Assembly (NCBI GenBank): GCA_025464995.1
Contig: JAODMO010000055.1
Span: 62,001-126,000, forward strand
Direction of reading: 5' to 3'
Length of the DNA stretch: 64,000 nucleotides
Source of the DNA: Microbacteriaceae bacterium
Lineage (GTDB): Bacteria; Actinomycetota; Actinomycetes; Actinomycetales; Microbacteriaceae
The translations under genes were made by a program, and so were the position numbers. Below are positions 58,034 through 63,988 of this stretch, in pieces. How positions within the stretch are numbered: the first letter of the stretch is position 1; every line of letters begins with the position of its first letter. The notes under the pieces were generated by a model. That model was given only the letters and a program-made list of their open reading frames with translations. It made no database searches and was not told the origin of the DNA.

Positions 58034-58981
58034 ATGACGGATGGCGAGGTGTCCGCGCGCGAGGACGAGCGTGCCTCCCACTCGACCCACCGCATAGGCC
58101 GCCGGAGACTTCAGCATCACTCCCTGGCCGCATCGGGCGCGCCGGCAATGAGCGCGGCCGTCGCTGACAACGTCCCCGGCCAGAACGCGATCCGCGAGTT
58201 CCTGCACCTGCAGTCGACCGTGCCGGGCCGCAGCCTGCTCGCACGCATCTTCGGCGTGAGCCCGCTCGTGCCAGAGACGCGCACGTGGTATCACGCGGCG
58301 ACGAGCGAGATCGCGGTGGGGGAGGAGCTCGGGCGCCTCGACCCCGAGTGGCTCGTGCTGCACGCGCTGCCGGTCGCCGCCGGGAGCGACATCGACCATC
58401 TCGTGATCGGCCCCGGCGGGGTGTTCATCCTCAACACCAAGAGCCACCCCGGGCAGACGATCTGGGCGTCACAGCGGTCGTTCCTCGTCTCCGGCATGCG
58501 GCATCCCTACATCCGGAACATGGAATACGAGATGGGCCGCGCCGAGCGGCTGCTCACGATCGCCGCACAGACTCCCGTCGAGGTGGCGGGCGTGCTCGTC
58601 GTCGTCGCGGCGAGGAGCATCACGGTGCGCGACAAGCACCGCGACGTCACCGTGCTGCCGAGCTCGGCCGTGCTGCAGTGGATCCTCGCCCGGCCGCGCG
58701 TGCTCACGCCCGGCGACGTGGCTCGCATCGGAGCAGCGACGAAGCGTGACAGCACCTGGTATGCGCGGTCGTCGACGAATGGCGTCGATCACGCGACGGG
58801 AGACGCCGGCGACAAGCACGACCTGTTGGCGCGCTTCGCCGCTCACCGTGCCGAGGTGCGTCGCGCCTGGCGCCTCCAAGTGACGTGGGCGACCGGCACG
58901 GCCATCGCGGGCGCCACGGGATTCATCCTCGTCACCTATTCGATCCTCGTCAGCGCGCTCGCCTCTCTCGCCAACCACTGA
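58034..58981 (+). CDS. NERD-domain membrane-anchored protein
   Basis: A 315-aa protein with a NERD (nuclease-related) domain at about residues 85-195 (ATSEIAVGEELGRLDPEW, DIDHLVIGPGGVFILNTKSH, the D...E/xxK-like core) and one C-terminal transmembrane helix near the end. NERD proteins are presumed nucleases or nucleic-acid binders of unknown role, some linked to defence or DNA processing. The DHLVIG...NTK pattern keeps the likely catalytic residues. ATG with GAGGA upstream. The preceding hairpin suggests it has its own transcript. Confidence 0.85.
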   Translation: MTDGEVSAREDERASHSTHRIGRRRLQHHSLAASGAPAMSAAVADNVPGQNAIREFLHLQSTVPGRSLLARIFGVSPLVPETRTWYHAATSEIAVGEELGRLDPEWLVLHALPVAAGSDIDHLVIGPGGVFILNTKSHPGQTIWASQRSFLVSGMRHPYIRNMEYEMGRAERLLTIAAQTPVEVAGVLVVVAARSITVRDKHRDVTVLPSSAVLQWILARPRVLTPGDVARIGAATKRDSTWYARSSTNGVDHATGDAGDKHDLLARFAAHRAEVRRAWRLQVTWATGTAIAGATGFILVTYSILVSALASLANH

Positions 58982-61017: not shown

Positions 61018-61593
61018 TCAGCTCGACGCGATGGTGTATCGCCTCGGCAGGGTCAGCAGAGTGCTGGCACTCACCACGATGAGCAGGATCGCGCCGAAGG
61101 TCAGGAACGTCGCCACAGCCAGCCCGGGCAGCAGGTATGCCACGATGCCCGCGATGATGGACACGGCCCCGCTGGCGAGGGCGAGCCAGCTCGGCGACAC
61201 CACTCCCTGCACTCCGGCCATGATGTCGATGACCCCCTCGGCGACCCAGCCGAAACCGATGACGAAGGCGAGCACGGCGAGCGAACGTTCGGGGCTCGCC
61301 AGGCAGTAGACGCCCGCCGCGACTACGAGGATCCCGAGTATCGCGGAGAGCCAGCGGAGCGACGTGGTCGCGTCGTGGGAGATCAACGCCACAGTGATCC
61401 GGAAGATTCCGGAGGCCACGAGGTAGATGCCGAAGAGGATGGCGATCGTCACGAGTGTCGCTCCCGGCCAGACGAGCGCGATGACGCCCAGCAGGAGCCC
61501 GATGACGGCGAGCGCGACCACCTCACCGCGGTGTATCGCGATGAACGCCGGAGCGTTGCCGGGGTTCGCGGAGCCGACGCTCGGACTGGTCAT
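61018..61593 (-). CDS. HdeD/DUF308 membrane protein
   Basis: A 191-aa protein with about six transmembrane helices in the paired arrangement of HdeD/DUF308 proteins (LVTIAILFGIYLVASGIFRI, SPERSLAVLAFVIGFGWV). In E. coli HdeD is linked to acid stress; the role here is unknown. The ATG at 61593 has GAAGGG 6 nt upstream; an in-frame ATG at 61638 is possible. It follows the fusion regulator on the same strand after 91 nt and might be its target. Confidence 0.85.
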   Translation of the reverse strand: MTSPSVGSANPGNAPAFIAIHRGEVVALAVIGLLLGVIALVWPGATLVTIAILFGIYLVASGIFRITVALISHDATTSLRWLSAILGILVVAAGVYCLASPERSLAVLAFVIGFGWVAEGVIDIMAGVQGVVSPSWLALASGAVSIIAGIVAYLLPGLAVATFLTFGAILLIVVSASTLLTLPRRYTIASS

Positions 61594-61684: not shown

Positions 61685-62869
61685 TCAGGACTTGCGGATG
61701 TCGGCGACGAGCGCGGTGATGAGCGGCGTCGGCTCGAGGCCGAGCACGCTCGTGATGAGCGCCCGGTAGCGGTCGAAGACTCGGAGCGCCTCTGACTGGT
61801 TGCCCGCGGCGAGATGCACCCGGATGAGGCTCGCGTGCGCGCTCTCCCGCAGCGGTTCGACGTTGATCGCCGCTCGCGCGGCGCCACCGGCCTCGGCCAG
61901 CCGGCCCTCCGATGTGAGTCGACCCGCGGCGGCCTCGAGCGCGCTCATCCGGAGTTGGCGCCAGTCCTCCGCCTCGGCGAGCACCCAGTCGTCATACCAG
62001 TCGGGCAGCAGCTCGAGTGACAGCAGGGCGATGGTCGCGGGGGAGAGGTCGGCGTCGTTCGGGGCGTGGCCCGGTCGCACGAGGCGCCGGGCCGCGGAGC
62101 GCGCGTCACGGAGATCGACGATGACCGATTCGGCGATGCTGAGGCCGGGCGACGTGCACAGGATCGCGTCCCTCGTGGCGGGGGCAAGTCTCGACAAGGC
62201 CGACCGGAGGCTGATGCTGGCGCGCTCGTCGGACACCTCCGGCCACATGGCGCTCGCCATCGACATCCGCGCGACGGAACGGTCGTGCAGGGCCAGGAAG
62301 GCGAGGAGCCGCTGGGAGCCGATCGCGAGTTGACCGATTCGCACCCCGTTGACGCGCAGGTCGAAGGAACCGAGGAGCGAGATGCGGATGTTGAGTCGCT
62401 CGGGCGCCTCGAGAGCGGGCACCTCGGCAGCGGCCGGCGCAGCAGGCGCCACGAGCTGCGAGGCGGGCGGCGTATCCGCCACGACCCGGTCGACGCCGAC
62501 GAGCGCTCGTTCCGTGTCGGGGGAGACGGCCCAGCTGTCGGCCCACGTGCTCAGCGCGATGACGACCGGTTCGAGATTGCGCCCGTTGCGTGTCAGGAGG
62601 TACTCCGTCTCGCCCGAGCCGCCGCCGACGCGGTGCTCCCGCATGAGCCCCGCCCCGACGAAGCCGTCGATCCGCGCGGCGAGGATGTCGCGTTCGACGC
62701 CGACTCGCCTCTCGAACTCCGAGAAGCGGGTGACGTCGTGGAACAGCGCCTCGCGGATGATGAGGAGGCTCCACCGCTCACCGACGGCCTCGAGAGCGCG
62801 CGAGGGCGAGAAGTGTCGCCCGTCGCGGCGGTCGTGAGGCTCATCGTCAGCGGCGCGAACCATGTTCAT
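61685..62869 (-). CDS. HxlR-BTAD fusion transcriptional regulator
   Basis: A 394-aa regulator with two DNA-binding modules. Residues about 20-115 form an HxlR-type winged helix (LEAVGERWSLLIIREALFHD, TRFSEFERRVGVERDILAAR, TEYLLTRNGRNLEPVV). After an Ala/Pro linker, residues about 150-240 form an OmpR/SARP-like winged helix (ISLLGSFDLRVNGVRIGQL), followed to the end by the BTAD TPR-like activation domain (LLPDWYDDWVLAEAEDWRQL, AIN...SLIRVHLAAGNQSEAL). The pairing is unusual in my knowledge. ATG 62869 overlaps the stop of an 8-codon upstream ORF. It lies between an HdeD-like gene and a surface-protein gene. Confidence 0.88.
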   Translation of the reverse strand: MNMVRAADDEPHDRRDGRHFSPSRALEAVGERWSLLIIREALFHDVTRFSEFERRVGVERDILAARIDGFVGAGLMREHRVGGGSGETEYLLTRNGRNLEPVVIALSTWADSWAVSPDTERALVGVDRVVADTPPASQLVAPAAPAAAEVPALEAPERLNIRISLLGSFDLRVNGVRIGQLAIGSQRLLAFLALHDRSVARMSMASAMWPEVSDERASISLRSALSRLAPATRDAILCTSPGLSIAESVIVDLRDARSAARRLVRPGHAPNDADLSPATIALLSLELLPDWYDDWVLAEAEDWRQLRMSALEAAAGRLTSEGRLAEAGGAARAAINVEPLRESAHASLIRVHLAAGNQSEALRVFDRYRALITSVLGLEPTPLITALVADIRKS

Positions 62870-62898: not shown

Positions 62899-62904
62899 AG
62901 AATA
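62899..62904 (-). promoter_or_regulatory. -10 box TATTCT of the regulator transcript
   Basis: On the minus strand TATTCT ends 6 nt before the ATG at 62892, placing the transcript start at that short ORF rather than at the regulator's own ATG. Confidence 0.4.
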
Positions 62905-62941: not shown

Positions 62942-63916
62942 TCAGCCGCGTTGCGCAAGCACCCTGCGGTGGAGGCCGACGAGCGAGAGAGCGCCGCCGA
63001 TCGCGAGGGCCAGCAGCCCGAACGCCGCGGGAGCCAGCGTGTCGGCCCCCGTGTTCGCGAGCGTGTCGGCGACGGCACGGGACGAGCCGCCGCGATCGAC
63101 CGGCGTCGTCGGGGCTGCGCTCGGGCCGGCCACGGGTGCCGCCACGGGTGTCGCGCCCGCGTCGCCGCCAGGGGGAACCACGGCGGCGACCCGGATGTCG
63201 TTGACGAGGCGGGTGCTGCAGAACGCGAGCGCGCCGCCGCCGTTGACGGAGCCGTTGCACTGGTTGACCACGATCGGCACGAGCGGCGTCTGCGTCGACG
63301 GCCCGACCGTGCAGTTGACGCGGGTGGGCGCGCCGCCGCCGTTGACGGAGCCGTTGCACTGCGTGATAGTCGCGCCCGTGGTGGTGTCGTAGCTGTCGCA
63401 GTTGAGCGTGGACGCTCCGCCGCCCTGGCCCGACCCCGCACATTGGTTGACGGTGGCCGGCGTGACGCCGGCCTGGTCTGCGGCGGTCGCGTTGGTGACG
63501 ACGTTCGTGACGAGTACATCGCATCGCACGACGCTGCCGCCGGCGTTACCCGAGCCGTTGCACTGGTCGACCGTCGTGGTGGTCGTCGGGTAGCTCGTCG
63601 TCACGGGATCGGCGCACGTGACCGCGGCCGGTGCGCCGATGCACTCCGCGACCGTCACGATGGACGACTGGGCCCCGGTCGCGAGGTCGACGCTGTTCTG
63701 GATCGTCACGGAGCACTGCACCTGCGCGGCCGCCGCGTTGTACACGCCGTCGCACTGGGCGATGGTGTTCGCCGCGGAGGCGGGGCTCGCGGCGCCGATG
63801 GGCGCGAGAGCGAGGAGAGCCGCGAAGAGCGCGGTTCCGACAAGGGCTGCGGCACGCCGCATCCGCTGGTTCTGCAAGCCAGTGCTTTTCTGCTGGCTCG
63901 TGTCGAGACTGTTCAT
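62942..63916 (-). CDS. Cys-repeat surface protein with sortase-like tail
   Basis: A 324-aa exported protein: a signal peptide with a basic n-region (QNQRMRRAAALVG), a hydrophobic core and an ASA cleavage site; about six repeats of a QC-N/D/A-GS-x-N-x-GG type, each followed by a second Cys (VDQCNGSGNAGG, ITQCNGSVNGGG, VNQCNGSVNGGG); a Pro/Ala/Gly linker; and a C-terminal LANTG, a hydrophobic stretch and a basic end, which reads as a cell-wall sorting signal with Ala in place of Pro. The ATG at 63916 has GGGGGG upstream. Cysteines may form disulphides outside the cell. Confidence 0.85.
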   Translation of the reverse strand: MNSLDTSQQKSTGLQNQRMRRAAALVGTALFAALLALAPIGAASPASAANTIAQCDGVYNAAAAQVQCSVTIQNSVDLATGAQSSIVTVAECIGAPAAVTCADPVTTSYPTTTTTVDQCNGSGNAGGSVVRCDVLVTNVVTNATAADQAGVTPATVNQCAGSGQGGGASTLNCDSYDTTTGATITQCNGSVNGGGAPTRVNCTVGPSTQTPLVPIVVNQCNGSVNGGGALAFCSTRLVNDIRVAAVVPPGGDAGATPVAAPVAGPSAAPTTPVDRGGSSRAVADTLANTGADTLAPAAFGLLALAIGGALSLVGLHRRVLAQRG

Positions 63917-63941
63917 GGTGTTTCCCCCCGGTTGTACCTGC

Positions 63942-63988
63942 ATTCTGCCAGTAAAAGCGTGACGAGGCCGTCACCGGGGCGTGACGAG
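63942..63988 (-). promoter_or_regulatory. Surface-protein promoter with 22-bp-spaced direct repeats
   Basis: On the minus strand a CAGAAT box (63942-63947) is preceded after 9 bp by CTCGTCACGC (63957-63966) and again by CTCGTCACGC (63979-63988), 22 bp start to start. SARP/BTAD activators are known to bind direct repeats at 11- or 22-bp periodicity, with the proximal repeat about 8 bp from the -10. Only family knowledge links it to the neighbouring regulator. Confidence 0.5.

Follow-up and report, generated by a model that had tools for sequence, protein, structure and literature searches.

SARPs are mainly known as activators of antibiotic clusters. In AfsR of Streptomyces coelicolor (8hvr, 8k60), whose target is afsS, the SARP domain consists of an OmpR-like winged helix and a BTAD domain and is joined to C-terminal NOD/TPR domains, and in EmbR of Mycobacterium tuberculosis (2fez, 2ff4) the SARP part is combined with a C-terminal FHA domain. 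According to one study, the SARP part of AfsR forms a side-by-side dimer with one protomer per 11-bp direct repeat, and base contacts are made by T88 and by R92, the latter contacting a T (PMC10936776). The HxlR/DUF24 regulators, such as HxlR, HypR, and YodB, have a winged-helix fold of another family. As described in a second paper, HxlR senses formaldehyde via a conserved cysteine in helix 1, dimerizes through helices 1 and 5, and binds DNA as a dimer through its winged helices (PMC7835342).

We analyzed a window of 64,000 nucleotides from a Microbacteriaceae bacterium (contig JAODMO010000055.1), in which a single gene joins representatives of both families. This gene and the segments of its product are as follows:

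61685..62869, minus strand: HxlR–SARP fusion gene, 394 aa, ATG at 62869, stop at 61685
62528..62806, minus strand: HxlR winged helix, residues 22–114 (Pfam, AlphaFold model, Foldseek, column comparison)
62396..62527, minus strand: Ala/Pro-rich flexible linker, residues 115–158 (low pLDDT; length highly variable among relatives)
62135..62389, minus strand: OmpR-like winged helix of the SARP part, residues 161–245 (model; AfsR and EmbR matches)
62189..62230, minus strand: SARP recognition helix, residues 214–226, plus R227, including I219 (model, alignment to AfsR)
61691..62116, minus strand: BTAD/TPR-like activation domain, residues 252–393 (Pfam, model)

An in-frame TTG at 62899 is a possible alternative start. 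Pfam detected HxlR (PF01638) at residues 29–114 with 49.2 bits (cut-off 20.8) and BTAD (PF03704) at residues 256–392 with 65.4 bits (cut-off 22.1). In a sequence search of the PDB, the best match of the HxlR arm was PA1607 (2f2e), which covered residues 23–149 of the fusion; the C-terminal part matched AfsR (8hvr, residues 160–387) and EmbR (2fez, residues 161–388). AlphaFold reached a mean pLDDT of only 37 when run with no alignment and 85.6 with a 34-sequence alignment. In the latter model both winged helices were formed, the SARP part spanned residues 161–393, and only residues 1–17 and 115–145 had pLDDT values below 50. Foldseek returned eight matches to this model at E ≤ 0.001, six to AfsR/EmbR and two to PA1607, with HypR, HxlR, and YodB next in the ranking at E of about 0.002. 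Pfam, the aligned model, and Foldseek thus all agree that two different winged-helix folds are present in one chain, as the preliminary description had proposed. The C-terminal part has the OmpR-type winged helix plus BTAD that defines a SARP, and this arrangement is complete, as had also been claimed; the N-terminal part has a complete winged-helix fold and the PF01638 match of an HxlR/DUF24 protein, but its borders lie nearer to residues 22–114 than to the first 115 residues originally assigned to it. Structure prediction and domain search, which had been suggested as checks, therefore recovered both domains and not one winged helix alone. Whereas AfsR carries its extra NOD/TPR domains C-terminally, the fusion has an N-terminal HxlR domain instead.

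The preliminary description knew of no characterized example of such a protein, and among open-licence papers we likewise found no report of an HxlR–SARP or HxlR–BTAD fusion and no relevant literature on SARPs in Microbacteriaceae. A pattern-based scan of GTDB contigs yielded 34 related loci, of which 12 were full fusions (L020–L030, L035) and 22 matched in the SARP part only. Nine of the 12 fusions were assigned to Microbacteriaceae or to genera of this family; the other three, all from MAGs, were assigned to Aeromicrobium (L023), Actinomycetes (L024), and an uncultured actinobacterium (L028). Among 299 sampled Microbacteriaceae genomes, 51 had a match at E ≤ 1e-20. The fusion itself was found in no fewer than 10 of the 299, from five genus codes (G000, G002, G003, G238, G150, G200 with two copies, G178, G056, G125, and G041). 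The latter count is a lower bound, as six candidate places were scored in most genomes, and some of these 10 genomes are identical with genomes among the 34 GTDB loci. Apart from the window's own, no fusion was found in samples of 248 genomes from the order and 296 from the class, and pattern-based scans of viral contigs revealed no relative of the fusion protein or of its HxlR part. This restricted range was judged from proteins resembling the window protein. The fusion is thus a conserved form of SARP that has acquired an HxlR domain, and it is not described in the open-licence literature searched.

A tree of the SARP parts was built from 42 loci (L048–L051 and L053 were not entered) and comprised 37 rows, because fused L091 and unfused L096, L097, L099, and L100 lacked the motif used for cutting. 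A single clade (99/98) contained 16 fused and seven unfused rows, and the fusion state required at least three changes on this tree, two of them forced by starred branches; the Agreia and Subtercola clades could not be placed. The unfused G027 was nested in the fused set (96/77, branch not starred), which looks like a loss of the HxlR domain. In an unrooted tree of the HxlR parts, those of the fusions formed a single group against 31 stand-alone relatives. As all fused HxlR parts occupy one side of a branch (91/85), a single capture of the domain is likely, with a stand-alone HxlR regulator as its probable source.

The fused arm shares the fold and the sequence family of the HxlR/DUF24 regulators but differs from them in not standing alone, in its sensing position, and in its charge. 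The HxlR domain of the window protein contains no cysteine at all, and the usual position of the conserved N-terminal sensing cysteine, just ahead of the domain, is occupied by F20. In a column comparison, a cysteine was present at this position in one of 17 fusions compared with 30 of 31 stand-alone relatives (32 loci had been entered, and L013 dropped out). Ten of the 17 fusions have Phe there, and helix 1 was unrecognizable in six. As 16 of 17 fusions, compared with one of 31 stand-alone proteins, lack the cysteine, canonical thiol sensing by the fused arm is very unlikely, and so is the earlier suggestion, in its canonical form, that a redox or aldehyde sensor is coupled here to an activator. 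A variant of it is that the HxlR arm switches SARP activity by sensing a non-thiol ligand or a protein. The retention of HxlR in 16 of the 23 clade rows and the modulation of AfsR by its extra NOD/TPR domains (PMC10936776) favor such gating, but the sensing cysteine is missing in nearly all fusions, helix 1 is unrecognizable in six of them, and G027 dispenses with HxlR altogether while being placed among the fusions on an unstarred branch; we therefore regard gating as a tentative possibility.

The HxlR domains of the fusions have a mean charge of −4.2, compared with +0.4 for the 31 stand-alone relatives. Against the six nearest stand-alone relatives, which were chosen after the alignment had been seen, the whole-domain charge still differed (p = 0.004, or 0.017 when only the 11 fusions having helix 1 were counted), that of the recognition helix differed weakly (p = 0.03, or 0.21 when the fusions lacking helix 1 were left out), and that of the wing did not differ (p = 0.67). 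R78 was lost in 16 of 17 fusions and in none of these six relatives. Helices 1 and 5, which form the dimer in HxlR, were both predicted in the AlphaFold monomer of the window protein. The idea that the HxlR arm no longer binds DNA is only partly supported, the case for it being strong against all stand-alone proteins and weak against the six nearest ones. Independent DNA reading by this arm is doubtful.

Around the fusion gene, three further features are relevant:

62942..63943, minus strand: gene of a secreted cysteine-repeat protein, directly upstream of the fusion; likelier start at the ATG at 63916
63958..63985, minus strand: predicted operator array GTCACG-N5-GTGACG-N5-GTCACG with an 11-bp period, ahead of the surface protein gene
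61018..61593, minus strand: gene of a DUF308 (HdeD-like) membrane protein (Pfam), downstream of the fusion

The surface protein matched no Pfam or NCBIfam family above cut-off. By eye, it has about six QCNGSxNGGG..C repeats and ends with an LANTG motif of the LAxTG type, and this end motif suggests that the protein is probably wall-anchored. Of four relatives tested, only the L024 copy, with 22.5 bits, exceeded the cut-off (15.9) of an LPXTG anchor model, and one sortase above the Pfam cut-off is encoded elsewhere in the genome of the window. Surface protein genes were found in 27 of the 299 family genomes at E ≤ 1e-8, and 22 of these adjoin a SARP gene, which is fused in nine cases and unfused in 13. 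The other five (L165, L166, L167, L168, and L171) have no SARP match alongside, and the open reading frames in the 1.5 kb or so that follow them show no apparent relation to SARPs; by eye, a sortase-like protein follows the array-less surface gene in L165 and L167 and a YkuD-like protein in L168 and L171. Three genomes of the window's genus (G001, G004, G005), two of them incomplete, have neither the fusion nor the surface gene.

The pairing has variants. In L024 the cysteine-repeat gene lies downstream of the fusion, and three distinct fusions (L022/L090, L023, and L091) have no surface-repeat neighbor and no array. In L025, a Rhodoglobus MAG, the surface gene is replaced by a gene for an ice-binding protein (L025:2856-3878; PF11999, 165 bits) that has an LANTG end by eye and scored 15.6 with the anchor model, just below the cut-off of 15.9. 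In L093, a tandem pair of SARP-type genes lies 3′ of the surface gene (L093:4670-6347). The DUF308 gene directly follows the fusion in the window's genus and is found elsewhere in the neighborhood in L020, L021, and L035/L084; that it belongs to the fusion-gene unit is doubtful. Farther away in the window, a gene for a NERD-domain (nuclease-related) protein (58034-58981, plus strand) lies beside zinc-dehydrogenase-like and GFO/IDH-type genes, as assigned by Pfam. In a check for a terminator between the surface gene and the regulator gene, hairpins of −32.0 to −40.5 kcal/mol were predicted in six of 15 loci (L085, L086, L087, L089, L095, and L097) and hairpins of −20 to −23 kcal/mol in three loci of the window's genus, where the gap in the window itself folds no better than shuffled sequences (z −1.0). 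The strong hairpins could limit read-through into the regulator gene.

Ahead of the surface gene of the window, the letters from 63985 to 63958 read GTCACG-ccccg-GTGACG-gcctc-GTCACG. As judged from sequence, this array corresponds to the direct repeats of 11 or 22 bp expected in SARP target promoters, and like the AfsR target it has an 11-bp period; it comprises three GTnACG units and is predicted to serve a surface protein gene rather than afsS. We scored all 27 surface genes uniformly, with three units at fixed spacing, the third base ignored, and a maximum of 15, the labels (fused, unfused, or no SARP) having been set by hand from the genome search results. A score of at least 12 was reached by 21 of the 22 surface genes with a SARP neighbor and by none of the five others, and the scores of these 21 genes were not attained in any of 300 block shuffles. 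The one exception, G150/L085, has a partial array (score 11, p 0.06–0.07). The summed scores at period 11 were 129 for the fused and 181 for the unfused loci, compared with 81–88 and 114–130 at periods 8–10 and 12–14, whereas the five genes lacking a SARP neighbor gave 47 at period 11 and 44–49 at the other periods. A first set of 22 loci, which included L098 with a wrongly set region (score 9), had given 304 at period 11 against 203–215 at periods 8–10 and 12–15; the pattern scan and the uniform test both show that L098 does have an array. No array could be read in L024 (score 10, p 0.33). In L025, GTCACG-N5-GTGATG-N5-GTAACG lies in front of the replacement ice-binding gene; the array therefore goes with the regulator. 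By eye, R227 aligns with R92 of AfsR and S223 with T88, and R227 was kept in all 32 loci tested. As R227 corresponds to the T-reading R92, the T of GTnACG fits this residue.

Allowing at most one mismatch, the fused-type pattern occurred once per genome in seven of 13 genomes, always at the surface gene, and control matches in these 13 genomes numbered zero. A single site was present in each of the three fusion-bearing genomes of the window's genus, and the pattern was not found in G001, G004, and G005, which lack the fusion, nor in G041, G150, and G200, which have it. With no mismatch, it was present in eight of 249 family genomes, namely in six of the 10 fusion genomes and in G043 and G114, and these last two indicate the chance level of the exact pattern. 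The unfused-type pattern is looser; it occurred in 10 of 14 genomes, including three sites far from a SARP gene in G072, with one control match, in G094. Three-unit arrays with one mismatch per unit also occur at unrelated places, as seen in a scan that left out loci below L020 and L054–L080. The earlier idea that the fusion would let one protein read two sites is not supported, as no second target site was found and the fused-type operator is single in the seven genomes mentioned, with the qualification that the scan sought SARP-type units and that an unknown HxlR-type site would escape it. GTCAC-type 11-bp arrays were also seen in L031, L045, and L052, which are unfused and have no surface-repeat gene in their flanks; they lie 99–194 bp ahead of the matched SARP part, were found with one mismatch tolerated per unit, so that chance arrays have to be kept in mind, and hint at self-regulation in the wider lineage.

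The unfused SARPs of Subtercola, Agreia, and other family genomes are related to the fusion, have the same neighbor, and use the same kind of 11-bp GTCAC array, although they carry no HxlR domain. This similarity is one of the points in favor of HxlR being a decaying passenger, a neutral leftover from an earlier fusion event in a protein whose SARP part does everything. HxlR also diverges more than the SARP part, is acidic and devoid of the cysteine, is truncated in L025–L030, and is absent in G027. As the core fold positions and the open reading frame are intact across several genera and the HxlR fold is predicted with high confidence, we nevertheless consider a mere passenger improbable.

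The arrays of fused and unfused loci differ in one unit. In the uniform test, in which the third base was ignored, a GTGACG-like unit, the middle one of three (the third of four in L028), was present in seven of eight fused arrays but in none of the 13 unfused ones. It was also found in L020, L021, L025, and L028. GTGACG reverses the unit and creates inverted repeats with its neighbors, GTCAC-N6-GTGAC-N6-GTCAC. This distribution, together with the binding of DNA by HxlR as a winged-helix dimer (PMC7835342), would suit a two-headed protein whose SARP arms occupy the outer GTnACG units and whose HxlR arm or dimer occupies the reversed GTGACG of a mixed direct and inverted operator. However, position 219, in the recognition helix of the SARP part, was Ile in all 11 loci having GTGA, and the fused G041 (Asp219) and G150 (Leu219) lack the unit. 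In the 15 unfused loci tested, residue 219 was not Ile, and none with a readable array had GTGA. Ile219 was also present in L022, L023, and L024, where the array is missing or unreadable, and fused L091 has Val219 and no array. Moreover, GTGA is kept in L025–L029, which lack HxlR helix 1 (L026, L027, and L029 correspond to G125, G056, and G178). In these alignments, the GTGA unit tracks Ile219 more closely than the presence of HxlR, the loci concerned sharing ancestry and reflecting one or few evolutionary events. The reading of GTGACG by the HxlR arm was demoted after this correlation had been found, and with one or few events behind the pattern, a two-headed reader is rather unlikely. It is similarly doubtful that HxlR and SARP winged helices jointly read one hybrid operator, in which SARP units in direct repeat would be combined with a reversed unit that arose in the fused lineage; such a protein would be a self-linked switch with one site, serving a wall-anchored surface protein that is an ice-binding one in one case.

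The reading that we prefer, and consider fairly probable, is that the fusion would be a dedicated SARP activator of the surface-gene operon and of its own gene, with the HxlR arm as an accessory. The two folds, their conservation, the gene pair, the operator array, and the cysteine loss were observed; that the protein binds the array, activates transcription, and shares a transcript with the surface gene is inferred, as are the anchoring of the surface protein and what the HxlR arm does. SARP parts would bind side by side on GTnACG half-sites that are one DNA turn (11 bp) apart and would recruit RNA polymerase at the surface-gene promoter. The surface-gene operon would be the one dedicated target, and, if co-transcribed, it would link the fusion to its own gene. 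The HxlR module, presumably captured once and since deprived of its sensing cysteine, would now be an accessory domain and not an independent redox-sensing DNA reader; it may provide protein contacts, extra dimerization, or help at one operator unit. Our confidence is slightly lowered by the surface anchoring, which depends on a motif read by eye, and the alternative readings overlap with one another and with the preferred one, so that their likelihoods need not add up to one. With good probability, the neighboring surface gene is controlled by the fusion via the phased 11-bp array.

In 22 of the 299 sampled family genomes, these findings link a SARP lineage with one surface protein. Each of the seven fusion genomes in which the predicted operator was found has one copy of it, which makes specificity cleanly testable. 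Versions with and without HxlR occur naturally on one promoter type, so that the effect of a second winged helix can be tested directly, the unfused sisters serving as a natural control for the role of the HxlR arm. The covariation of I219 with one operator base, in turn, offers a handle on SARP–DNA recognition.
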